From: Mytilus galloprovincialis
Taxonomy: Eukaryota > Mollusca > Bivalvia > Mytilida > Mytilidae
NCBI RefSeq assembly: GCF_965363235.1
Contig: NC_134838.1
Coordinates: forward strand, 15,532,441 to 15,596,440
DNA length: 64,000 bases
Reading direction: 5' to 3'
This document shows positions 3,845-60,534 of this stretch, piece after piece. A program made the position numbers and the translations under genes. The notes below the pieces were generated by a model. It was given only the letters and a program-made list of their open reading frames with translations. It did not search any database and had not been told where the DNA came from. Within the stretch, counting starts at the first letter, position 1. Every line of letters starts with the position of its first letter.

Positions 3845-6800
3845 ATGGCAAGTAGCTTTGTCAAACGGGCAAGCTATCATATAACCAGCGAAGACGATAT
3901 ATTTAAAATTCCAGATGTGAAAACTGCAATGATGTTATTGAAGTCATGGGGACTGGAAACAAAAGGACTTCGGACGAAAGACCAAGCTTTGCAGCGAATA
4001 TTGGATCATTGGAGAACAATCTCCGATGAACAACAAAAACAATCAGATGAAAAGGTATGCGTTTATTACAATGTGTTTGTCTGTGAATGCATAATAGAAT
4101 TATTTTTATTATTGATACAAACTTGGATAGGTATATACAATATTTTTATATACTTTCATTTTAATCAATATTTTCAGATCAACAGATATGTCAAGGACTC
4201 GTCAGAGAAGTTGAAATCAAATATTGAAAAACTGGTATCAAAATTTGAAAGCATGATAAAGTTTTATAAACAGTTGTCGCTCACTCACCAGAAAAGCATT
4301 TGTGAATCATACAAGAATATCGAGGAAATAGCTCGAAGTAAAATACATAATCTGAAAAATAGCCAAAGTGCACTTGTTATTTCTGGTAAGTTAATTAACA
4401 TTGAGGGTTTTATAACATAACTGTATTTATGTAGGCATTAAATGAGTGTAGAGTTACAAATAAATTATCACCGATGCCGGGCTGCACAGATCAGTGGGGC
4501 TCAGATAAAAAAATGTACAGTTCAAAACAGTCATCAACAATTCCGATTATACAGATTACTGGCGGTCAGATCAAATCAGGTCTAAACAATAATCAACGAT
4601 TCCAGGCTAACAGATTAGTGGCGTTCAATTCACAACAGGTCAAAACAATCATAAACGATTACAGGCAAATACTTATAGCGCTTACGTAAACATAGTCATC
4701 AACGACGCAATGCTATATACACCAGTGGCACTCGGAGCAAAGCAATCCAAAACAAAAATCAACGATGCCTGACTCAACTTATCAGAGGTGCTCGGAACAA
4801 AACAGGTTACCAATCATCCCAGATACCAGGCTATTTACATAAGTAGCGCTTGTATCAAAACAGTTTTACACTTTTATGTCATCATATAACGAATTTTTAG
4901 AGCATTAAAATCGAAAATTTTACAAAATGTTGTGCTAGTATTGACTTGCTCTGATGGTTCTAGCAAAAATACATTTGTCGACAAATCGGGACATAGTAAA
5001 GAAAAAAATAAGTGCTGTTCATATGAGTGTTTTTTTGTTTAAGGATGCATGTTTATGTCATGAAAATAGTGATTTTTTTCGCTTTAATGCAATTTTTCAT
5101 TAATTTTTTTCTGTTTATTTAGGTGAGCTCGGTTCAGGTCAGACAAGTTTTATAAATCTCTTGCTACAATCAGATATTCTACCAGTCGAAGAAGAAGGCT
5201 GTACAAGAACTTACTGTGAACTGAAACAAGGGGGTGAACCCAAGGCAACCTTGTACAGCAAAGACCCAAGTACTATGGAATCAAAGGTCACAGTACTTGA
5301 TATGAAAGACCAAACAAGCAAAAAAACACTGAATGATTTTATAACTTCTGCAAACGAGATGATCTATCATGAAAAAGTAACAATAGAGTATCCTTTCGAG
5401 TTTTTAGAGGTAGGTTGGAATCTAAAGAATTTTTTAAAAGAAAGAAACTATAAAATAAATTAAACTATAAAGCAAGTTATTCATATCAAAATGTTTGTAT
5501 CAAATAAATAATGGAAATAACTACATGGCTTGATATTAAAAAAATTGTATTACAATGTATTACAATTTTTTTCCGTTCGTTACCTACGCTACCTACTTAA
5601 ACCTGTTTTCAAAATAGTTTTGTAGTTTGATATGACTCCATTTATTTCACCTCGAAGGGCGGATCTTTAAACGCCAACACAATGCAAGGATACTTTTTAA
5701 GAAAGCGAAACACTACGTATTCATTAAACTGATATCAATCATCAATTTATATCATAATACAGAACCAGAGTGACTCACCAAAAAAAAAAAAAAAAAAAAA
5801 TCCAAAAAAGAACATATTTTCTTACATTCGAAAATGTTATGTGTATAATAATTTCAATAATGAAATGATAAAATAATATGCGTGTTATACCTTAATAAAG
5901 CAGAAATCCGATAACACAGAACAACAAAAAATACTCAGGATAAGAGAACTACTAATGGTTATTCGGAATAACCAAAAACAATGCCTTTGATATACATTAG
6001 TAGTTGATTAATTATTACAACAAAATGTTATATGAGTTAATTCTGTGGCTCGCATCCTGACGCGTATTATGATTTTATTTATTTTGATGAATATTAAAAT
6101 CTGTATTTGCTACAAAAAAAGTTCCGCAATACATACAAATCTATAAAGTGTACATAATATGTACTATACTATACTTTTTAGAGTGGTATACATGTACTAG
6201 ACATTCCTGATCATATTGACACTTCTATACCATTAGAAGATATTATATCAGTCCTGCCACCAAATGTAGTGTTCATCTATGTTTTAGATTTTTCTAAACG
6301 TGAACATATTGAGACAGGAAAGGTAGGTAATGGTTTTGTCAATCTGTAGCTCAATGTATCAGAGAAAAAAAAGAGAGAGAGAGAGAGAGTATGAATTTTA
6401 TAGAATCAAATGTGCTCAGTGCAGTTTAAGAACATGACAGTAGAAAAAAAATGTACAAGACAATCGTATGGGAAACAAGGTTTCTTAAAATTCGACATTT
6501 TGCAATAGACTTACGTATGGTGTGGATATTGTTTTCTTATCGATAAATGCCCGCAGCTAGGATTTGTGCTGATGCAATTGTAGTAGACAACTCGTAAAGT
6601 GTCAGTCTTTTTAAAAAGAACTTCCAATGTCGTGAAATACAAAAGATTTCTTTTCTTTTTCTTGAGAAAACTTTTTTTAAATGCCCCTTTGTGTTGCAAT
6701 CATCAAACAATATACTACTCGTATTACCATTTTCTTCACTAATATTTGTCATTTATGTCTTGTGTTAAAGGTGGAAGATTTTATTGCGCATGTCTGCAGA

Positions 6801-9800
6801 ACGTCTCAACATGGTTTCTCTTATGAAGACGTGATGGTCGTCTGCAATAAATGTGACGTCATCCCTGAAGAACAGCTAGATGACGCTAAGATAAATGCGA
6901 GAGATCAGTTATTAAAAACTTGTCCGGAACTGAAAGACGACCAGATTGCATTTCTGTCAGTGAAAGAGGTAATGAGTTTGCATTGTAGTAGATTTGTAAC
7001 AGAAACAAGTCAATGACATGATATACCCTTTTTTAAGTAGTATGATAACACAATTATAAAATTTTTTAAATGTCCGCCTATATAGTTCAAAGTAATGAAG
7101 CATATACATGATATATATAATAAAAGATAAAATTTCAATATAGTTATTTGAGCTAAGAAATATCTGTCATAATATCAACATTTCAATCGGGAAAAGGGGT
7201 ATATAATTAGTAATAAACCTTTCTAACACTTTACACTTCATGATTTTCGAATCGTTTAAATGACCCTGATATATTATATAATTATATATTGTTAACTGTT
7301 TAATAGATGTAAAACAATAATAACATAACAATATATGTAAGTCAGCACAGAAATATCAATACAGGCATTATATTTACATATTGTAATAAGATTAGTGAAG
7401 AAGTAACAATTATATTTAGCATTTTTAATTGTTTTTTTAAAAGCATGATCGCTGTCATTTCTCTTCTTCCCAGAAGATAATTATATATTTTACGGACGAC
7501 CGAAATTTTAATTGTTATGTTTATGACAAACTTATTCATATGGCGGAAAGAAGTTTGATATTTGTATGCTGTATTTCAGTTTTATAGGGTTTAGTTTATA
7601 AAATGGATCGACCATTTGGAGAAGTATAGTTAAGCCCGTGAAATTTGAAATAATCCGGATGATTAATACGTTCTAAGCAATTACAGCAGATAGAAAATTA
7701 AATCAATAACAAACCCGTTGAAGAAAGAAAAAGACGTTTCAAAGTAAAGACCATCACTACTAAGTGAGTCGAAATTTTAACATTATGAACAGTTAATTTT
7801 CAGAAAATGTTATTTAATGTCGGCAGCAAGTGCTGACTGTTCTGCTGGTGATAACATCGGGAACGAAACGTCCAGTGGTAGTTCGGTATACAATGTATAT
7901 TCAAAATTGAATTGTTGTTTTTTCTCTTTGTATCCAGGAACAGCGCTTGGAACCAAGTGGTATACATAGTGAGGATTTCCAAGCAGTTTGCAAAGCTATT
8001 CACAATTCATTCTTAAAAAAGATGGAACAATATTTAAAAAAGGAGTACAGGTTGGATATTCACATATATTTCACGAGTTTATTTCTTGCTTGTTATTTTT
8101 CCCCTTAAAATTTCCTTCTTATGTCGTTGCACTTGTACATAGAATATATGTCAACTTCGGATAAATACTACAACAAACTAAACTGAATAGAGTGAAGAAT
8201 GATATAGCACACTCATTTATGTATTTATTATATCAATTCAAAAACAAATACGAATACATGTATAATAAATTTTTGAAGAAATGTCAAATAAGAAGATCTA
8301 TCTAAAGAACAAGTAGAGGATGAAATTGATTACATTAAGATCTTTCTCTTTTATCCTTTATGGGATAGTTGTCTTACTAACAGTCATTTTACCACATCTC
8401 ATTATTTACTTATTGTGAATGTTCGCCTGTTTCTGAAGACTGTATATTTTCGTCTAGCATGTTTTGATACTTGATATTCAAAATTGTTCATATACGAATA
8501 CAAAAATATACCGATTTAACAAATAGTTGCATTACTAATGTTGGTTAATATTTTACAGATGGTTATCACAAGTACAAAAACGAGCCTTGTACATTTTAAA
8601 AGTGAGTAAGCTTAACAGTAATAAAACACTTGAAGAGAGAAGAGAAATGATGGCGCAAGTTGAAGTACGCATTGAAAAACTTGAAAAAGAATCTAGGTTG
8701 ATAATTGGCAGACTCCACGAGGAAGTGGATATGGAAATCGACAGGCTTTATAATAAAGTAGTAGATTATCTGAATTCTACTGATTTAAAATCTAGTATGA
8801 CAGTCTGGTTGGATGACCAGTGTCCAAAACCTGATAGAAAATGGAAGCATTTAAAATGTGCTGCCGAAAATAGCATTGTTGAAAAACTCCGAGAAAAACT
8901 AAATGAATGGGAAAAGTCAAGTGCAATCAAACTGAAAATTCAGAAACAAATAATCAACAAATTTAGTGAAGAAGTGGAACTTATGGAAACCCATATGAAG
9001 AAAATTGGAGGTATTTTGTTATGATCAAAGATAAAAAAAAAAAGTTCCTGGGAAGAAGTTCAAGCTTTCAATCTTTATGATATAAAATTGTATATGAATT
9101 CAATACTTTTAGATAAAAACATTTTAAGTTGATTACTATTAGCAATGCATTTGTTTCCAAACTTTTTCAATGTAAACTGTAAACTAAGTTGTCGTATTGG
9201 TATAATTGGATAAACAGCACATTAAAAGGTAAAACTTAACACAACAAAAATACAGAAATCGAAGAAACTTTTAAAACAGAAAGTTCCTTATCAAATGGCA
9301 AAATTAAACCAATGAATAACAACTGTCATTTTCCTGACTTGATACATCCATATCCTTATGTAGGAACCGAGCTTTCCCTTTCCCTATTTCAATGACGATG
9401 AAATTGTGTACTAAGTATCTTTGTCCGATTGTTTTTATATAGTCGATTTACATTGCAGCAATGCTAGCATGTGGTGATTCAACGGCTGTGGTGAACCTGC
9501 ATCGATCTTTCAAACATGACAGTCCGGTGAATCTGAGAAGTTCCCCTCAGTCATCTACAAGCAAACCTCAGAAAGACAAGAATAAACTCAGTGATTTTGT
9601 TTGTGGTATTGGAGGATTTGACAAAACTGTCAAGAAAGAGATCAAACCTATTTTCAACAAATATAAAAAAGAAACACGTACACATCTTATGTTCAAAGCA
9701 ACAGATATTTACCTAAGATGTTTAATAAAGAATCCACAACTTAAAGAAACTGTAGGGAAATATATAAAACGATTTTCGAAAGATATAAACAAAATTGCCA

Positions 9801-11786
9801 AGATGATACCGGATTTGATAGCAATGGATAAACGATTGATGTCTTCATTAGAATCTGAAGTCATGGAAACAAAAGAAACTATTCATGTTATTCCTGAAAA
9901 TCTACGCAGATGCCTAGTCTTACAAGGGGAACTTGATTTATTCTATGTCTACGAAATGTGGCAATTGGATTACCGACTTCGGGATTTAGAATGGAATGAA
10001 AAGCGGAAATTAGGGACTGGAAGTTTTGCAAATGTTTATCCTGGTCACCTGAATACAAATGGAGAGAAAGTTGAAGTAGCCATTAAAATGTTTAAAGACC
10101 CCCTCCAGACAAATAACATTTCAGAGTTGTTACTTGAAGATGAAACTCTAAGGTATGATTTTATTGAAGCATATTGCATAGTTATCAAAGAAATTTCAAA
10201 TACTAGTATGATATCCCTGTTTGCAACTAAAGTTTAGGATTACTTTCATCAGCTATGCCAATAAAGGAAAGTCAAAACAGTTATTATTTAAAAGCATCTA
10301 AACAAATCAAACTAAATAAAAACCGCCAATCCGACTTAAGTTAGTTTGTGTGTGGGTACTGAAATATCTAGAATATTTTCATATCTGGTGCATCTTTCAT
10401 CTTCATGTTATCTTTAGAGCTAATTTTTTTTTAATATGCCATGAATTACCAGTATGGAGAAAGCTTTTATATGATGTGCCTGTTGTTCAATCCATTTCAT
10501 ATCTTTATGAATAAAATATGTTTAAAATCAAATACTCACCAATGATATACATGAATATTGTAATTGTAGGGAGTTGGAACATGACAACATTATCAAATAC
10601 TACGGAGCTACAATTCTACAAAAGGGATCGCCACAGAAGACATATTGGATTATGATTATGGCTAGTTGCATCACAAACCTGAAAGAAATTTACCTTGACA
10701 AGAAATCTCCCCTGAAAGAAGACATCCCCTGCAAGCAGACTAAAGGAACAATGGAATATGAAAAGGCCAAGACTGCAATGGTTCATTATGTGGTCCAACT
10801 ATGTGAAGGTGTATCCTTTCTTCATGCCAAGAAACTAGTACACAGAGATCTAAAATTAGAAAATATTTTGGTAATGTTTGTTTTTGTCATTTTTGTCATT
10901 TTTTTTCTCAATTTTTGCCCATCATTCTCTATTCTTCATATTTTATTCCCCATAAGCTCTATATTTTTAAATGTTTGGACTAGTTTTCTTTATTCTGTAT
11001 TTTTTGGGCCCAGTTTCTGTATCATTATTCTCCCTTTTTCTTTATTCTGTCAACCCCATCTAGACCCTTTAATATGCAAAATCTTTATGTCCCTACAGTG
11101 GCTTTAAAAACAATATCTCCATAAATTCTTCTGGAAATGTACTTTACTTTTAGAAGTATGACAATCAAGTTCACATGATTTATATTGAATGTTAACTTAT
11201 ATTAGTAGTATTGTCAACAAACCTAATTAATCGGATAAAAGAAAATAAACATACAATGAACCAATAAAAATCCAGGAGACTTAATTCAGATGCAAGAAGT
11301 AACTATTCCAAATTTTTTAGAAAAGCACAAATGATATTCACTAAAATATTGTTCATGCTGTTATTTTAGGTAACCAAAAACAAAGAAATAAAACTTACAG
11401 ATGTTGGCCTAACAAAGCCAGAAGAAGATATTTCTGGAACATTCGTCGGTTCACCAGTTTATATGGCTCCAGAAGTACACGAGCAAAAATCAATTTACAA
11501 CCGGAAAGCTGATATTTACAGTCTTGCAATGGTGTTGTGGGAAATGTGGTATGGCAAATCCATTAATGATGAACTGGACGGGAAAGTCAGAGGGAGGCTC
11601 TCTGTTGAAATAAGAGGAGGGACTCGTCCCATGTTTACAGAGGACCAAAAGCATACTAAACCACCGGATGAGTGGATAACATTTATAGGAAAATGCTGGG
11701 CTGCAAATCCGAAGTTCCGACCAAAAGCAAAACTGGTCGCAGAATTTTTCAAAGATTCGTTACTGAAAACTGTGCATTTTGTTTGA
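3845..11786 (+). CDS. DSTYK-like: DSTYK-like protein: GTPase-like region plus C-terminal protein kinase, 10 exons
   Basis: Exons 3845-4054, 4178-4385, 5123-5409, 6182-6322, 6771-6968, 7938-8050, 8559-9010, 9459-10152, 10570-10870 and 11370-11786 all have GT-AG borders and matching phases, totalling 1006 codons plus TGA. Residues 1-70 are helical and SAP-like. Residues 140-148 read GELGSGQTS at the P-loop position (Lys replaced by Gln), 242-245 DIPD at the G3 position, 308-311 NKCD (G4). Residues about 400-535 are coiled coil. The kinase has a glycine loop near 722 (GTGSFANV), K746 in VAIK, HRDLKLEN with D861, DVG at 879-881 in place of DFG, and APE at 901-903. The activation segment (SGTFVGSPVYMAPE) and the insert pattern after the P-loop follow vertebrate DSTYK (929 aa), a dual-specificity kinase. 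Start: the ATG at 3845; an upstream in-frame GTG is not a credible animal start. The kinase catalytic residues are intact; GTP binding is doubtful. A duplicated lineage member rather than the strict orthologue is possible. Confidence 0.85.
4460..4870 (+). repeat. degenerate ~70-80-bp tandem array in intron 2 of the DSTYK-like gene
   Basis: Units share the order ATCAACGAT-CCAGGCT, then CAGATTAGTGGCGCTC-like, then AAAACAGGTC. About five or six diverged copies follow one another between exon 2 and exon 3. The open frame across part of it (4474-4689) is interrupted in other units and has no splice context, so it is not counted as coding. Confidence 0.55.
5779..5801 (+). repeat. poly-A run
   Basis: About 21 consecutive A bases in intron 3 of the DSTYK-like gene. 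A short (GA)n run follows at about 6370-6390 in intron 4. Both are simple sequence. Confidence 0.8.
9280..9365 (+). repeat. dispersed repeat family C, copy 2
   Basis: ATCAAATGGCAAAATTAAAC and ATAACAACTGTCATTTTCC match the family seen at 2170-2390, within intron 7 of the DSTYK-like gene. Confidence 0.55.
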
Positions 11787-26100: not shown

Positions 26101-29100
26101 TAACTTCTGTTACAATGTTATATCTTCCCAATTCATTGTACTTATTCCAGAGAACTGTGTTAACAGGACGTCCAACTTCCATAATGTCCAACCTGTATCC
26201 AATTAGATTTTATAATATGAAATACCTGAGCTATCATTACTGTGATAGGAATTAGTGTTAAACATGGAATCACTTCTCACTGTATCTGTTCTAAAGTCAG
26301 CTGAATTATTTCCAAAGTCTGAAATATGTAAAATTAAAGATTAAAAGAAAATCCAACATAAAACGTGATGTTACATCTAAATGTATCTGTTCTAAAGTCG
26401 GAAGAATTATTTCCAAAGTCTGAAATAAAAAAAAATCAAGAATTACAGAAAATTCAACATTTAACATGAATTCATAACAAGTTGTATCTGTTATAAAACA
26501 AAAATCTGAAAATGGAAAAGTAAGAAAATTTCTGATATCTGTACTAATGACAAGCTCTTAACAATGTCTGAAATTTGAAAAATTGATACTCCATCGCATT
26601 CATTTTTTTTTGTTTTTTTTAACATTTTACTAAGGGCTATTCCAGAAAAAAATGTATGGGGGGGTTGGAAGGCACATTGTATTAATAATACATGGGTGAT
26701 GGGTATCAGAGCAACTTTTCACACTATAATGCACTTTAACTCTTTATTACAATTGTCTGGGTGGCGGGTGCTGACAAAAACTGCCTTCCAACCCCCCCAT
26801 ACATTTTTTTCTGGAATAGCCCTAACTAATTTTGTAATAAAGTATTTTTCTTTGTGTCTATTTGCAAATTTTACTGTGATGTATATTACATATAAGTTAA
26901 TTCAGATAATCATTCTAATTAATATAAAGTTTTGTGAAAGCTTTTCACATTACATGTAATTATTCTCATAAAAAGATATTTCTTTTACAGTAAATTATTT
27001 AATAAAACCTTTAACAAACCCTTGTAGCAACTCCTTTAACCATGATGAGCTCGAATTCTTGTTTATATAAGATTGGAATCAATTTTGTTCTCTTATAAGC
27101 CAAGTCCCAATATTTATGACTATTTGCAAATGAAGAAAAAAAATGTGCATAGTTATAGCTATAGATGAATATACCATTTCTAACTGGAGAAAAAACATCT
27201 TCTTCAGCAGCTCCATCAGAGTGATTATTTATGTTATTATGCTCTGAGAAATCTGAAAAAACAAAATATATTCTGAAATTTTGATGTTCTGAAAAAAAAA
27301 TATCTGGAGAGGTTGTAAATATTAATGTCTACAATTTTTTTCAAGGGAACTGATTTTCTCAGCTGTCCTTATTTTGTCATAAAAAAATAGAACTACATGG
27401 TTAAGTCAGAAATTAATGAGTCAATTTTTATGGAGAATTCTTGACCATTGGCAAATATATGAAATCCTATTAATGTGATTGCAATAATATCAGGAAGGAA
27501 AATTGCTGCTGAAACTATGAATGCATAGTCTTTATTATTGCAATCCTGATAATGTCACATTTATCACAATAATTTCAATAATTTCTGAATTGACAGTTTT
27601 CTTTGTAAAAAGTAAATTAACAAAAATACTGAACTCCAAGGAAAATTCAAAACTGAAAGACCTTTATAAAATGGCAAAATCAAAAGCCCAAACACATCTA
27701 ACATACATACTTTAGTCTTGAAAATGCATGAAATATGCCTTTGAAGATTAAGCAAATAATCATTATATATCAATATAGTATTTATATATCAATATAGTAT
27801 ATGTAATTTTACTCCTGGTAAATCACATTCATTTAAACCTTGTGTTGTTGTGGTAGCTAAAATGTACAATGACTGCATTCTTATTATTATTAAAGAATTC
27901 TAAGTAACCATTCTATTTGTTTAAAGGAGAGCTGCTACATGATACTTTCATCATAGAAGACTTTGTACACTGGAAGTAAACCACTGTATGAATAATTACC
28001 TCAGAGCAAAATGTACACTGAAGTTTTTTCTGTTGTTTTTAAGGCTCAGTATCTTTAAGATTCCTTGAAGTATAAAGTTAGTCTTTTGTTTTAAGGCTCA
28101 GTATTACATTTTTTATCTCAAGATTTCCATGACTTTGTTCTATTGTTTTCAATGCTGGGTGTTTTGTTGTTATCACGACTGTATTAGCTGAAAAATGTTT
28201 CAAGATTTCTCAAAGTTGAAGATCGTTCTATTGTTTTAAGTTCAGTATTACCTTTATTATGTCCTGATTTCCCTAAGGGAGCTGATGGCAGCTGTCTTCT
28301 GTTAGGTGAAATTGCTGCAGAAGATGCTGACTTTGCACCTGAAGGTTCATGCTGGAAAAAAAGCCATTGAATAAGATTTTCAGCTATTTTGACAGAAGTT
28401 GAAACCAAATTTACTAAAAAACATACAGAAATTTAATATGGTGGAGCTGTTTAACAATGTATTATTGTGTTGTGCACTTTTGAAAATAACAGACATGGAG
28501 CTGATGTTAACGTTTATGAAATATTGGGTAAACAATAAATGTGCTTTTATCACTATTGTATATCTTGGCAGCTGCAAGTCATGTTCAGTCATCAGACTTT
28601 ACAGAATCAAGAAAAGGTTTAGAGTAAACTTAAATTTATAAAGGTTAGTTTTTTTTTAATTTTCTGGTCAAAGTTTATAATGTTGCTATCTTGAGACATT
28701 CATAATGTTATGGTGAATAAATATTGAAAACAAAAGAAGACTATAATACATCTTGCATTTGTATGGTTGTAACAATACTTTTTCTATTATCTCACACTTA
28801 TGGGTATGCTTTAATGAAATGTCAAGCATGATAAAGATTCAGACATACAAGATAGTTATTCCAATATGTGTGTTAATGTATTACTTTGACTACAATAATT
28901 TTAACAAACTATGAAAAATAAGTTAATCTGTTTGCTTCATGACATGATACACTCTATAATGGCACAACCAATTTCCTGTATTTTTAAAACTTACAACTAA
29001 ACCATGTTGAAATTTAACATTCTGTACAGATGATTTATGTGCATTGATGGTTTTCATTGGTGCATTCCCATGTCTCAGATCATATAGATATATTATCCCC

Positions 29101-32100
29101 CTTGTTGATCCAACAGCTACAGTGGCTCCATCTGACATTACATCTATAGAAGTCAAAGGATTCTCTGCTGTCATTGTTTTAACTGGCCTAAATAAAAAAG
29201 ATAAACAATTACTATTAACTTAATATTCATACATTATCCAATTATTCTTTTATTAGTCCAATAGCTGAGTTGTAGACAATTCTTTTATTAGTCCAATAGC
29301 TGAATTGTAGACAATTCTTTTATTAGTCCAATAGCTGAATTGTAGACAATTCTTTTATTAGTCCAATAGCTGAGATTGTAGACAATTCTTTTATTAGTCC
29401 AATAGCTGAGATGGTAGACAATTCTTTTATTAGTCCAATAACTGAGATTGTAGACAATTCTTTTATTAGTCCAATAGCTGAGATTGTAGACAATTCTTTT
29501 ATTAGTCCAATAGCTGAGATTGTAGACAATTCTTTTATTAGTCCAATAACTGAGATTGTAGACAATTCTTTTATTAGTCCAATAGCTGAGATTGTAGACA
29601 AACTATATGTGTCAATGATGACTATCTTGTTGAATTATTTGATCAGACAGAAAAAAAGTCAGTTTTTTCTGTACCCTCGAAAGTGATGCAAATTATAAGA
29701 ATTTCATAAAAATAATATTTTTACAATTTTGCATGGCTTTTTGTTTGTTTAACAGGGTAAATGTTTTATATATATGATACAAATAGTTATCATAAGAAAC
29801 ATGAATCTAAGGTTCTTCAACTTTACATTATGTGATATTACTATGCTTTTTCTTCTATTAGCCACCATTTAAATACTGTTAAACTTTTCTGAGATCATTT
29901 CATTTTCATTACATGGCTGTTCACAAATTAACATATTTTACTAAACAATAAAAGAAATTAAACCTTAGTTAATGTTTAACAAATCCCATAATTTATTAGA
30001 TATGAATAACAAACTATTTTACTTCTAAAATATCTTTATAAGTTATACTACATTTTTATGCATGCAAAACCTAAGGAGAATGTAATCCTTACTTTTTCCC
30101 TTGAGTATCATAGCATACAATTCTTTTATCAAGTCCTACAGACATTAGCAATATATCATTGATGGGAGAAAAGTTCAAACCCGTGGCTGGTGCAATGTGA
30201 GAACTTGAGAAGCTATGAAGCAGTCTACGTGTATTGATATCCCACAGGTTAACAGCACCATCATCAGACACAGACCCCAGTAATGACTTTCTAAATTTAC
30301 TGTACTGTATCTGACGTACTGTCTGAAAAAGAAAAAAACATTGAGTTACTTTATCAGATTAATTTTGTACACAAAAATGTAAATATTTTTAATATTCTAA
30401 TAATTTTTGTTCAATAAACATACTTTTTAAGTTTTAAACGGTACCTTATTTCAGGGTTTTATTATTTGCATCTATCAAATAAACTAAAAATATAGTTCTT
30501 ATCTTTAAGCATTTAATTTCTATGTTTTCCCCTCCTTACAATATCCACATAAATTAAAAATCCTACAAAAATAACTTTTTTTTAAATGAATCAACAGCAT
30601 TCAAATTATGTATGTATATAGATTTAGAGACATAATTAATATTATACAACATAACTTAAAAATAGGAATACCTGGCACTTTGGTGCAACCATTGGACTGC
30701 AACCTTGACCTGTAACCACATTAAACAAGATAATCTCTCCTGTTTCAGAACCAGATGCAATGTATGTGTCATTGCAGTTAAACTGGGCACAAGTCACAGG
30801 TCCTTTATGGTCCTGTAAATTAGACAGAAATAAATCTTTAGAAACAACTAGGACATGTAAATTTTCTAACAGTCAATCAAGTATTGACTAAAAGTTTAGT
30901 AAATTATTTAGTCCATTAAAAGAAATGAAATTTATCAATAATCTTGACAAGACTGGTTCTGAAATTTTCCATTTGTAATACAACCAATATATTATATCAA
31001 TCTAAGGGGGCATAACTGTAAAAATAATATAGGATTTGAGCAGATTCTCCAAGTAATTTACATTTTTAAGTGCATAGCTTCATCCAAATTATTCATTTCA
31101 ATCTGTTTTAGAACTCAAGTGTACGTCTGTTACAAGAAATTACATATAGTCATACATTATAATGTTTGTTTTCCATGATGACATATTCCATACACCATGT
31201 ACACTCATAACTTATACTTTTTTTTTTTAAATTTGTCTGTGATTTCAGATCCCATTCACTCATACCTTATACTGTTTATGTATTTTTTTGTGATTTCAGA
31301 CCCCATTCACTGATACCCCAAACTGTTTATGTACTTTTTGTGATTTCAGATCCCATACACTCATCATGCTCATACCTTATACTGTATATGTATTTTATGT
31401 GATTTCAGATCCCATACACTCATACCTTGTACTGTTTTTTTATTTTCCGTGACTTCAGATCCCATACATTGATACAGCTGTCTGTTCCACCAACTAACAG
31501 GTATGATGAAGTGGAGTTAAAATCTACACATAAACTTCCTGCCTGTAAAAAAATAGTCTTCAGAACATATTATTTATTTAAATTCAATATCACATGGACT
31601 TCTCTTGTCAAGCTGTGGAGGATGTATAAATAATCAGAATTGAGATGCAAAATAAATGTCTCATATAGAGAAACTAGCTAATTAATGCCAAATTCTCTAA
31701 ACATCTGACTTTTTGCTGTTTAAAAGCAGTGGAGTGCATTATTTTGGTCCTCTTTATTCTATTATAAAAATGTTGTGTTGGTTAGTAAATGTTTGTACAG
31801 CTTTACTTTCAGGTATAACAATAATGAAGATGCTAATAAAACCAGACACAAATTGCACATGTACACCTACTTTAATCTGTTGTTTTGTTAAGTTTTCATA
31901 TAAACAGCAAGTAATTAATTCCATAAGTAACACCAAGCATAATTGAAGAAATGGCACATTGTTATATATACTTACAGGACTATCAAATTCTGTTACTGTT
32001 ACCGCTGTATCTTTCACAGCAGTAAAACAGATTTTATCACTCTTAGAAGATGCACTGCATAATAACAAATCTGGCATGTGAATTAAGGAGTATCATATAA

Positions 32101-52900: not shown

Positions 52901-53925
52901 TATCGAAGCCACAAAAATAACAATACAATGTGAAACTTAAAGGACACTAATCAAATGGCAAAATCAAAAGCCCAAACACATCAAACTAATGGATAACAAC
53001 ATAACAAGTTATAGTTCTCGTGAATGGATCTAATGGAAATATTTATGCCTGGTTATTTAATGCAACCAATACAGATTTAAGGGTTTGTCACATTGAATAT
53101 CTGTGACAATGTTGAGGTAGAGATTGATTGTTTTGAATTTTTAGTCACATTGTCTAGAAAAACACAAAAGTGGTGCACGGTAAGTTCACTATATGGCCAA
53201 GATGTGTTTAGATACATGTTGTTTTGGAGAGGAAACGTGAGTTTGTCATTTAAAATTTAAATTCTGGTATTTATAATGAGTTTACAGAGGCAGATGAGTT
53301 TTCGTAAGATGTTAATGCAATACAATCAGGATTTCTTTTTTTTTAAGGCATCTACTATAAAATTACACTGAAATGCTTACCAAAGAACTATTGCAAAGAG
53401 AACCATTGTTCAAGAGACAAATTTTGAAAAAATGAAAAATGGAATGTAAAGGAAAAAGTATTGAAAATTATGTAGTCCATGTTCTGTAAAAAACTAACAA
53501 AGGCGACTATGTTTGGATTACCGGAAATAAAACTAAAAACTGGTAACAGACGTGCCTCTGTTACTCAGGATTTATGATAACTTGGATTTTTTGTCAGTAT
53601 GAATCTCAGTTGTTTTCATCACTGTGCTTATCATCAAGTAACTGTACCAATGATGCCTAGTGAGAAAGAAAAGACTTTTTTTACCTAAAAGGATGGACTT
53701 GATCCGGATATATCGTTGTCGTTCGGACTATAACGTTATGCGACATCAATGCTTCAATCAATTATAAAGCAGCAGGTAGCGAATGTCAGTGGCATATTGC
53801 AGCTTTATATATTGGTGAGATGATTGTTTATTGGAGACCATATTATGAACATCTTTAAACTTTTATATTATTATGGACAGACTTTTAATTTCTGCATTGA
53901 AATTAACACCGAATAAATATAAAAA
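49971..53925. other. MBD4 3' region and intergenic DNA
   Basis: A+T-rich with a family A end fragment at about 51530-51595 and family C copy 5 at 52935-53010. The first canonical AATAAA after the MBD4 stop is at 50979-50984, so the 3' UTR may be about 1 kb; nearer ATTAAA variants exist. No further gene was found. Confidence 0.4.
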
Positions 53926-56089: not shown

Positions 56090-56880
56090 AAGGGATACAC
56101 CAAATAAAAATAAAACAGCTCACAAAAATACCACATTTATAATTCTGTATGCGTTTCGTCTAAATAAGACTTATAAGAGGCGCTCTAATTAAGACGGTTA
56201 GTAGACAAATCCAAAATACGAAGTAGACGTGCTTCAAATGTCAATAACAAATTGAGCCAAATACAACGAAGGCAATCTATTACTTGGGAAAGAAAACTTA
56301 AGTGTAACGATTAATTCTACATTCCATACACAGAAAATTATAGAAAATTGAACATAGCAATTGTATTTCATGTCAACACAAATTGCTAACACTAGGGCTA
56401 ATAGTAACTCGGGGACTTAACATCCACCAGTGGTGGAATCAACCCAGTGGTTGTAAAAACTCACCAATGATACCACACATAATTTTGTATGTCATACTCG
56501 GGATTCGTCTTCATCAGACTCTTTGGTGGCACTCTAATTAAGACAGTTGGTTGGCAAAACCAAAATACGAAATTGTGGGGTTTCAAATACAGATAATTCA
56601 TTAAAGACGATGTGTAGGTTCAGAATGAATAAGCTTAATAGTGTTACGAATAACTCGACATTTCATATCTAGCAAATTAAAGGAAAATGAACATTGCATT
56701 GATTTTGCATGTCAACACAAAATTGAAGACACCTAAACGTCCACCAGTAGTGTTATCGACCAAGTGGTTATTAAAAAATATCAACGATATCAAGATTATG
56801 GTTTCGTACGCCAGACACATGTTGAAACACATCCTTCATCAAAAGCAGTGTAACATGCAGTTACTTCTATACGACAGATG
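56090..56880 (-). repeat. retrozyme-like array, minus orientation, decayed hammerheads
   Basis: Reverse-complement monomers of about 310-350 bases. Hammerhead-like remnants lie near 56140-56190 (AGACGAAACGC on the minus strand), 56480-56530 (CTGATGA intact, stem II lost) and about 56795-56850. Between them, GTAATAGATTGCCTTCGTTG and ACAACCACTGGGTTGATTCC match the plus-strand array at 57341-58120. Confidence 0.55.
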
Positions 56881-57354
56881 ATTATATCTCAACTAAACAC
56901 AAAGTGTACCGACAATAGTATTTAGTGACAACAAAATTACACATATGCAGAGGGCTGTTACACCATACAGTAGTTGTTGTGAATAATAAAAACGCCGAAA
57001 ACTGGTGGAAAGACCTAAAAATATATATTTACGTATAACATTGATTTCCTATTTCCTAAAGCTGGACCTTCCACTATTTGACTCCAACATGATTTTGAAT
57101 GCCTGCGATATCTCTACCTTAACAACTTATTGTGAGTTTAGCCTGTTATTATATTTTTTTTTTTTATTGATTTCCTGTTTACAAAAGTATGATTTTTTTT
57201 AAATACTGGTTTTGCTGATCAACAGTCTTGAAGCAGCATTGACACTAGTTTTCCGCTTTTATAGCTATAGTTGTTTGTTTAATATATTGTGTAACTTCAT
57301 ACTAGAAACAATTATTTTTGATCCAGCTGTCTAAACCATGTGTTACCCCTCGAT

Positions 57355-57396
57355 CGTCACTGATGAGTCTCTTGTAGACGAAACGCGTGTCTGACG
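57355..57396 (+). ncRNA. type I hammerhead ribozyme motif with intact core
   Basis: Stem I pairs CGTCA (57355-57359) with TGACG (57392-57396). Then come the core CTGATGA (57360-57366), stem II GTCT/AGAC with loop CTTGT (57367-57379), GAAA (57380-57383), a minimal 2-bp stem III with loop GCGT, and the cleavage triplet GTC (57389-57391). All invariant positions of the hammerhead consensus are present. A very short stem III is known in hammerheads of Penelope-like elements and animal retrozymes, which may cleave best as dimers. Activity is not shown by sequence alone. Confidence 0.7.
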
Positions 57397-58064
57397 CAAA
57401 TACACAACTTCAATCCTGAAATCAATTATCTGTTTATTTACAACCGCTGGGTCGATGCCAATGATGAGTCTTTTGAAGACAAAACTAGCGTCTGGTGCAA
57501 ATACAAAATTTAAATTCTGGTATCTATGATGAGGTTATTGTATCGTTATCAATGTTATAGGTCATCTTGCTTACAAACTTTGAATTTATGAAATGCTAAG
57601 GCTTTTCTACCTCAGGAATAGATTGCCTTAGCTGTATTTGGCAAAACGGTTAGGAATTTTTGGTCATCAAAGCTCTTCAACTTTGGACTATATATTTATT
57701 CGAACGTCACTTATTAATCTTTTGAAGACGAAACTCGCGTTTGGCGCGAATACAAAATTTCAATCCTGGTTTCTATGATGAGTTTATTTACAACCACTTG
57801 GGGCAATACCATTGGTGATTTTTTTATTCCACGAAGGTATCACCAATCCAGTTGTCAGCACTTCTGTGTTGACAGGAATTGTCATTGATATTGTCATAAT
57901 TATACATAAACTATTTACAAACTTTTCAATTTTTGATGTACTAAGGGCTTTCTGTCTCAGATATAATTTACTTTAGCTTTAGTTGGCAAAACGTTTAGGA
58001 ATTTTTTGTCCTCAATGCTCTTCATTTCGCACTTAATTTGGCTATTTAAACTTTTTTATTCGAG

Positions 58065-58106
58065 CGTCACTGATGAGTCTTTTGTAGACGGAACGTGCGT
58101 CTAGCG
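58065..58106 (+). ncRNA. degenerate hammerhead motif
   Basis: CGTCA, CTGATGA, stem II and the GTC triplet are kept, but GAAA reads GGAA and stem I is weakened. It is probably inactive. Two further copies near 57461 and 57704 have changed CTGATGA boxes. Confidence 0.5.
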
Positions 58107-58427
58107 CAAATACAGTCTTAAAATATTATCCATGTGTTGTTTGATAACTTTTAATATCATTATTAACCAGGCTTGCTGCATGTCTCTATTATGTTAAAAA
58201 GGACAATCAAATTCAGAAATGCTCAATACAAAGATACTGCCGCGAAGACCGTAGTTCAAGTATTTACAGAACTACATCATTTCTATATTTACAGACAGGA
58301 TGTGTATACTTTACAAATCCTTGGTACAGATAAATGTTAAAAAAAATAGAGTTTTCAATTATTTTAAAAAATAAAAACACATTAACATGTAACATTTTAT
58401 ATATATAAATAACAATGTGATTGCATA

Positions 58428-60534
58428 TCATTCCCTTATTTTGCCAGCATAATGTCTCGGTATTTTAGAAACGGGATCGGATATAACTAATGACGAAAGA
58501 GTCCCACCTTCATAGTTTTTATAATTTTCTTTACTTGATTTTGACATATTGCTTGTTCTTGATAAGCCACGAAAATTTGTGCTATGCACCAAATTTTGAT
58601 CATTCTGTGATAGAGTTGTAATTTTGGTTTCACGACTCGTAGTTTTTTCTTGATTTACTGAATGCACTCGTCCATCATATGCAGGCGATGTATTGTCTTC
58701 AGAAGATTGAACGGAACTTGTTTCACTGACAGATTCATCCTCGCTTTTGTCTATCGGAGAGGATTGTGGTTTTTTGTATCGAATATGAATAGTAACTTTC
58801 ATTTCCTGATAAGGTCCGTACGAACTGTTTGTGACAACAGATTTAGCACGTTCGTCTTTGGTATCATCCTGACTCAATAAGCTACTAACATATCCAGACC
58901 GTGCCGTATCTCTGCCTATTTCATCACCCAACTGTACATCACTTTCACTTAATGCTTTATTCGGCGGCTTAGAGTCAGGCGAAATATCAGGAAGCTTTTT
59001 AAACTTCTGCCATGGAAATGGCTTTTTCTTTGATTTATATCTATTGTTATGTGACACTTGTGTTGCTTGAAGAAAATGTTTCTGTTTTGATTTTGTTTTA
59101 ATGTTTAAATGTTCAAGAGGTGATATTGCAAACATTTCTGATGGGTTAAGTTGTTTAAATCTTCTAGTACAATCTGTAACAGGAGCAAGTTTCTTTTCTA
59201 CTAATATATTTTTTCCTGATAGATAACTTCCATTCACAAACTGTAAATGATTTTGAAGATCGGATATTCGTTTATAGCGTTTTTGGAATTCTATTTCGTC
59301 GTGAATGCTACCAAATCTTGAGTTTTTACTTGGTCTTTCAATGCTTTTATTGTACATATTTTCACGATTTGTATGTCCACTCTCGACTCTTGAAGGATAA
59401 ACTTTAACTCCGTTGTTTCTCATGATTTTTTTGTCTTCCTTTTCAATAAATTTTCTTTGAATTGCTTTACTTTCCGCAGTGCTCACTATTTCAGAATCAG
59501 TGTAGTTAATACTTTCCGTATATGCACCGCCGGATTCACCGTCTTTCTGACTCTGTCTCTTTCGTCTACGTTTTAGACTTCGTTCAGATTGGATTGGTGG
59601 TGTATATTGTTGTGACCTTTGTGAACTTGGAGCATATTGTTCAGAAAATCGTTGATTCTTCATCCACGTTTCAACTTGTTTTACAATATCCGTACTCCAG
59701 TATTTTTCTTCGAGGATGGGACGTTCTTTATTTCTAGGCGTTGAACCATTATTCATACTCCCTTTATCTTCAGCTGCATTGTAGGTCATTTGTCTGAAAG
59801 AAAAATATAGACTCGTTTTAAAAAAAATCAACGAAAGCCCTCCAAATACGTTCTAGTTAGAATTGAAAAACAAAATGGATGTCTCCGTAAGTTGATCACA
59901 GGAAAACCATTTGAAGACATGATCAGAAAACTAATGTGATTTGAGTTTAATGCTTTCTGTATATGAAAAACTATATCTAGCAAACAAGAAATGTTGATAA
60001 ACGTACAGGAAACAAATTCTGGGTAAATATAGATTTCCTTATTTTTTAGATTTTGGAAATGATGTAAATTCGATCTCGCGTTAGTCTACGAATAGAATGT
60101 ATATTGTAATCATCTGCTTGTTTTCATTTTGTACTGCACGGCTTATTTACAACTATTCATCGTACTGAATATACATGAAATATTTGTCACTGTATGTTAA
60201 GCAAATGACAGCCAATCACTTGTTCAGAAACAAATATATGGGGTTGAGAATTTTAGAAATCGCTGATTGTCACCAAGCAAGTACAAATTCATAAAAAGTT
60301 AAGACTTCTTGGGAATAGAGAGGATTGAAACAAACATTAAAAAAATCCACAGACATTTAAGACTTTTAAGAATAGGCGATCGTCGAATGCATGAAAAACA
60401 TTGCAAATTTGTACTATTAAGCGAGAAAGAATAACACGAGAAATCCATATGATATTATTCCTTTATATTATATGTTTTTGTTCTTTTTATTGAGAAGATA
60501 CCACTTACCTTAGTCGACTATGTGTTAACTCCAT
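58428..60534 (-). CDS. unrecognised basic, Ser-rich, probably disordered protein, 2 exons
   Basis: Exon 1 is 60534-60509 (MELTHSRL plus two bases, consensus donor AG|GTAAGT); exon 2 is 59793-58428, preceded by a good TTTTTCTTTCAG acceptor and ending TGA. The two phases join through an Arg codon to give 463 aa. I do not recognise the family. The protein is rich in Lys, Ser and Glu with few hydrophobic runs. It has a nuclear-localisation-like cluster (KRRRKRQSQK, about residue 72), a basic stretch KSKKKPFPWQKFKKLP in mid-protein, a short hydrophobic segment MKVTIHIRYKKP, and a Ser/Glu-rich tail. No membrane segment or signal peptide is seen. If the upstream exon is wrong, translation could start at the Met at 59789, giving 454 aa. 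The long open frame and clean splice sites argue for a real gene. Confidence 0.7.

Follow-up and report, generated by a model that had tools for sequence, protein, structure and literature searches.

A probable cluster of decayed retrozyme insertions in a mussel genome and the fixed 3′ end of its family

What kind of DNA carries a run of hammerhead ribozyme (HHR) motifs in the genome of the mussel Mytilus galloprovincialis, and is it a source of self-cleaving RNA or a decaying relic of one? The question was raised by a preliminary description of a 64,000-nt stretch of contig NC_134838.1 (positions 15,532,441 to 15,596,440; here called the window), which placed four motifs in a tandem array and named Penelope-like elements (PLEs) and animal retrozymes as known carriers. 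The comparisons reported below indicate that the locus is, very probably, a cluster of old, decayed, non-autonomous non-LTR retrozyme insertions in a Mytilus-type mussel. The locus is in that sense ordinary, the remains of an element type already known, and it is the fixed 3′ end found throughout the family, rather than the locus, that is worth following up.

The claim of a fully conserved core at 57355-57396(+), with stems I, II and III of 5, 4 and 2 bp, is borne out by a strict structural scan (CTGANGA, a stem II hairpin of ≥3 bp, GAA, a closing pair, H17, and a stem I of ≥4 bp), in which this stretch was the sole pass on either strand of the 64 kb; Markov-shuffled control windows (n = 100) contained a mean of 0.02 strict HHRs, with any match in only 1 of the 100. 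The motif is a complete type I HHR in which every core base is kept, with a 5-bp stem I, a 4-bp stem II, and a stem III made up of an A-U and a C-G pair plus a possible wobble (2–3 bp) and closed by a tetraloop. All four plus-strand hammerhead-like stretches that had been claimed are present (at 57352, 57453, 57702, and 58062), with the whole core kept in the first only and core bases altered in the other three. The covariance search suggested at the outset gave a mixed answer: run in E-value mode, the Rfam model RF00163 (Hammerhead_1) matches the core and stems of 57355-57396 at 25.9 bits (E 0.0021), and no match anywhere in the 64-kb window reaches gathering level (34 bits for Hammerhead_1). 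The gathering cut-off is not decisive here because all 20 Hammerhead_1 matches in ten loci scanned (five retrozyme, five Penelope-type) also fall below it, at 22.4–33.6 bits. Minimum-energy folding does not return the HHR fold for the window copy (z 0.10), nor does it for a young family member.

Homology to other copies in the genome, among them a young reference unit at a locus labeled L024, divides the retrozyme sequence of the window into two blocks, with the following parts:

57158-57351 (+): decayed, 5′-truncated retrozyme unit (about monomer 195-366) that runs into the first HHR; blastn, 63% over 57158-57440, with 57163-57207 at 83%
57352-57440 (+): start of a unit, the intact HHR plus the tail region that follows it; blastn homology
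57355-57396 (+): complete type I HHR; strict scan, and Rfam Hammerhead_1 at 25.9 bits, under the cut-off
57459-57539 (+): HHR remnant (core changed) plus a tail that stops at the usual 3′ insertion end of the family; 84% to L024 monomer 7-86
57540-57701 (+): partial unit (about monomer 180-366), an adjacent insertion or a deletion product; homology
57702-58061 (+): nearly full-length decayed unit (360 bp) that opens with an HHR remnant; 421 columns aligned with the L024 array at 80%
58062-58143 (+): final HHR remnant, its core changed (52 nt at 90%), plus a badly decayed tail; homology, with the end at about 58143 set by eye
56107-56823 (−): second retrozyme block, about two decayed units with HHR remnants near 56534 and 56185; homology, with the tail end near 56107 set by eye

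The limits first given to the plus-strand block, 57341-58120, are therefore too narrow, since homology extends from near 57158 to about 58143, and the minus-strand block, from 56823 to about 56107, is absent from the preliminary description. Nor is the plus block a regular tandem array of ~780 bp: its HHRs are spaced irregularly, at 101, 249, and 360 bp, and the two shorter spacings are deletions or junctions within units of ~360 bp. Because a tail stops at the usual 3′ end of the family at 57539, well inside the block, the block probably holds more than one insertion, in all likelihood a neighboring pair that has since suffered deletions; a single deletion whose breakpoint fell at 57539 is a possible alternative. 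The copy at 58062 aligns over 58062-58113 with the first of the two subfamilies described below and reaches 58153-58159 with the second. GC content is 0.34 in both blocks and 0.31 across the window. Two candidate features were rejected. The 9-bp sequence CCATGTGTT at 57337-57345 and 58130-58138 was considered as a target-site duplication, and its right copy sits inside the decayed tail. Both blocks were also considered as a single divergent, twin-primed insertion, which we keep as a possibility only, neighboring retrozymes having no orientation bias (see below).

The genome searched comprises 1.385 Gb in 331 contigs, of which those labeled C1 to C14 span 133 to 73 Mb and sum to ~1.37 Gb. With 57341-57520 as query, at least 41 further matches were found, mostly with 82%–87% identity over 106–119 nt (40 of 2,303 candidates scored), and 37 loci were fetched around them. 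The longest unit in the window, taken as 57702-58113, is 80% identical to the young L024 array, whose family is present in thousands of copies, which bears out the earlier suggestion of a decaying relic of an animal retrozyme. Exact tail words number 6,855 for subfamily 1 and 7,974 for subfamily 2 (0 for reversed-pattern controls), and there are 3,333 exact copies of the 36-nt HHR strand. Units are about 350–370 bp long and recur in tandem; the window holds one of 360 bp, the others having been deleted. On C1, one insertion is present in three copies with the same flank, ~6.2 kb apart (C1:2395941, 2402156, and 2408369; L206-L208), a local tandem duplication.

A retrozyme has been described from this same species, with ~5,000 type I HHRs in two similar families and repeats of ~350–390 bp (Cervera and de la Pena 2020, PMC7229834). 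A cloned repeat self-cleaves at ~0.1 per minute, the ligase RtcB closes the monomers in vitro, and the circular RNA is abundant in tissue, most so in gonad and mantle (PMC7229834); M. galloprovincialis circRNAs are deposited as MN642551-MN642576. Our family resembles the published one in having a type I HHR, two similar families, tandem units of ~350–370 bp, low GC, thousands of copies, and no coding frame found, and the retrozyme reading of the window gains from the agreement in unit length and HHR type (PMC7229834). Unlike the published elements, the window locus is an old, deleted relic.

Across the genome, the family proves to have a fixed 3′ end. Of 59 match chains, 49 were kept (≥130 nt long and not touching the edge of a locus; 2 edge and 8 short chains were left out), and 31 of these end at monomer 84–94 (scan-corrected binomial 1.6e-32); 5′ ends are scattered, with 11 of 49 at monomer 1–4, in part because the query starts there. 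When the first 100 exact subfamily-1 tails listed on contig C1 were taken as a sample, 78 ended 0–5 nt past the tail word, 20 continued into the next unit (L125, scored at 6 nt, being counted as continuing with an indel), and 2 were unclear (L120, L160); the 6 sites that share flanks with another site are included in this tally. Genome-wide, 768 of the 6,855 subfamily-1 tails (11%) continue for 12 nt, compared with 3,333 of 6,497 (51%) for an equally long control word in the HHR. Subfamily 2 behaves similarly: of the 20 tails listed first, 9 continue and 11 stop at the homologous base, one duplicated site accounting for 3 of the 11, and the larger share of continuing tails in this subfamily (2,140 of 7,974 genome-wide) is partly due to its long arrays. 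From the HHR cut to the end of the tail word, 24 strict HHRs give a distance of 44–47 nt, with 46 nt in 15 of them; in subfamily 2 the distance, counted by eye, is 41 nt. A fixed 3′ end 41–47 nt past the cut, in two subfamilies, is new to our knowledge, though it may be described in the supplement of PMC7229834.

The 5′ ends were set against the position of the cut in the same sample. Upstream of the cut, 81 of the 100 sampled copies extend or show retrozyme sequence (judged by eye; for about 26 of the 100, the 5′ end falls outside the fetched stretch), a computed 5′ end lies within 2 nt of the cut in only 2 of 100, one of them an internal deletion (by eye), and no pile-up of 5′ ends at the cut was seen in the 100 copies. 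At six sites (L091, L096, L126, L145, L166, and L187), an exact tail word is present but nothing recognizable as retrozyme was found upstream of it; these are either insertions of ~25 nt or another element with the same tail.

Target-site duplications were surveyed at 32 ends of the 59 chains (short chains, ends outside monomer 76–96, edge cases, and L016 dropped) and at 58 of the 100 sampled sites (those left out were six flank duplicates, copies that continue, and copies whose start coincides with the edge of the locus). At the array ends, there were 7 matches of ≥7 letters versus 7.3 expected and 2 of ≥10 letters (L035, in a palindromic flank, and L043) versus 0.16 expected; at the sampled sites, 4 junction matches of ≥7 letters were found versus 0.4 expected. 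Target-site duplications are not general, and the surveys are not used as evidence. In three 4-unit arrays, 6, 5, and 2 rare letters are common to all units, whereas none of 200 random cross-array groups has any. Five 2-unit arrays gave counts of 10, 8, 4, 3, and 2, versus a random mean of 0.75 and maximum of 5. The excess over random groups is thus seen in 3/3 of the former and 2/5 of the latter, the other three lying within the chance range. Units are more alike within an array than they are, on average, to units outside it in 7 of 8 arrays, but in only 3 of the 8 are they more alike than to their closest outside unit; since, in addition, three 2-unit arrays are at chance, one circle per array is no more than a possible origin. 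Shared rare letters fit a single circle as template, but they also fit local DNA duplication.

Taken together, a fixed 3′ end, scattered 5′ ends, and the lack of a pile-up at the cut agree with reverse transcription begun inside a circular RNA. In such a scheme, the reverse transcriptase (RT) of another element would start inside the RNA circle at one place, just before TACAACCAC or TACACCAC, copying would cover as little as part of one turn of the circle or as much as many turns, and the resulting cDNA would be inserted in the genome. A single start and a variable number of turns would yield both ~25-nt stubs and multi-unit arrays with the same 3′ end, and because copying usually passes the HHR cut (about 81 of 100 copies, with 2 ends at the cut), the template would usually have been uncut there, as either a circle or an uncut multimer. 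There is a precedent in PAc, a PLE of Anolis, the protein of which starts reverse transcription in vitro inside the RNA, at an AC-rich stretch downstream of the HHR, and the genomic copies of which end at that internal start and occur in tandem (Frangieh 2024, PMC11167929). The retrozyme is like PAc in having an HHR upstream of a fixed internal 3′ end and tandem genomic copies, and it differs in that PAc encodes RT and GIY-YIG, has a cut-to-start distance of about 85–92 nt (by subtraction from its ORF positions) as against 41–47 nt, and has two starts where the retrozyme has one end, 0 of 49 arrays ending at monomer 115–135 (PMC11167929). The distance of 41–47 nt and the next bases, TACAACCAC or TACACCAC, are similar to the Penelope-type pattern. 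We put forward, tentatively and as something well short of probable, that metazoan retrozymes owe their copying to internal initiation of the Penelope type, in which a partner enzyme would recognize the HHR region, start 41–47 nt past the cut before an AC-rich stretch, and roll round the circle. If so, tandem arrays, the fixed 3′ end, and random 5′ ends would all be accounted for, and type I HHRs would be common to retrozymes and Penelope elements because the ribozyme fold is part of the landing site of the enzyme.

Alternatives were weighed both for the locus and for the mechanism. PLE-type elements do exist in the genome, with at least 147 GIY-YIG matches (from 150 scored out of 1,001 candidates; longest frame 911 aa), a frame in a family labeled A here that combines GIY-YIG with RVT_1 at 28.8 bits (cut-off 29.6; the RT domain was not seen in one family-B fragment), and hammerhead-like motifs in PLE families A–C (labels of the present analysis), and the block might in principle be the remnant of an autonomous PLE whose pseudo-LTR carries the HHR. 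Against this, no open stretch in the plus block exceeds 64 aa and there is no RT or GIY-YIG frame, so that the earlier Penelope-like reading is not supported for the locus; the unit is only ~350–370 bp long; and, of 44 GIY-YIG loci searched with the retrozyme unit and both tails, only three (L063, L065, and L070) match over more than 14 nt, in each case outside the element. We regard a PLE remnant as very unlikely. Equally unlikely is ordinary satellite DNA spread by unequal crossing-over that merely contains an HHR: some subfamily-2 arrays do run for many units at exact spacing (at least 12 units at 354 bp in C1:56127313-56131242), but the family also consists of dispersed short insertions, down to ~25 nt, with one 3′ end and scattered 5′ ends. 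Most improbable of all is that the ribozyme at 57355-57396 was retained for a role in the host, such as processing a nearby transcript. In favor of such a role, this ribozyme has kept its core where the three other plus-strand copies have altered core bases. Against it, the unit in which it sits has decayed no less than the others, the nearest long frame (58428-59831; 467 aa, without a Pfam match at E 0.01) lies on the opposite strand, and one intact HHR out of four can be chance.

The mechanism is more evenly contested, for the same retrozyme may have been mobilized by a LINE-type rather than a PLE-type reverse transcriptase, a serious possibility if somewhat short of an even chance. Target-primed reverse transcription that begins at a single start generally leaves insertions with one 3′ end and random 5′ truncation, and the pattern seen here speaks for this reading. 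The comparison with the PLEs of the same genome points in part the same way. PLE families A–C have two fixed 3′ ends, 43–67 and 84–104 nt past the hammerhead-like cut, and end in (TA)n, as seen in 19 of the 21 copies that could be measured (another 3, in which homology stops earlier, were left out); the first distance is close to the 41–47 nt of the retrozyme and, together with an end that lies inside the repeating unit, speaks against a LINE-type enzyme. The distance fits families A–C only: family F gave 76–181 nt in 4 of 5, and in family D the anchor was missing in 9 of 10, the tenth giving 224 nt. Unlike families A–C, however, the retrozyme lacks (TA)n ends, (TA)4+ being present in only 2 of 100 flanks, and its tail sequence is unrelated to theirs; neither the 44 GIY-YIG loci nor a comparison of the sequence upstream of short insertions yielded an element with the retrozyme tail. 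Orientation differs as well: GIY-YIG neighbors within 6 kb, among the matches listed (the best-scoring ones), form 19 divergent (−,+) pairs versus 1 (+,−) pair, which joins different families, and 2 in the same direction, whereas neighboring retrozymes, counted by hand, form 4 convergent (L010, L011, L027, and L032) and 4 divergent pairs (L010, L036, L042, and the window). Target sites, pair orientation, and tail sequence hence do not point to the Penelope elements of this genome. As to those elements themselves, the (TA)n ends of families A–C in L048 and L054-L081 lie at two places 32–44 nt apart, resembling the optional tail known from Penelope, and the divergent GIY-YIG pairs are what would be expected if both target strands were extended, which has been reported for PAc.

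One review says that the repeats carry no conserved motif indicating the enzyme that moves animal retrozymes (2020, PMC7761336), and another leaves the mobilizing enzyme open between LINEs and PLEs (2024, PMC11722881). With a defined start base in two subfamilies, the question of the enzyme becomes directly testable in vitro.

Elsewhere in the window, weak retrozyme-like fragments with 64%–77% identity lie at 53222-53284(+), 7772-7874(−), 4838-4935(−), and 27602-27649(−). Pieces of a protein kinase gene (Pfam PK_Tyr_Ser-Thr and Pkinase) are found at 9461-11107(+), and a 36-bp tandem repeat occupies 29244-29601 in 10 copies with 97% matches.
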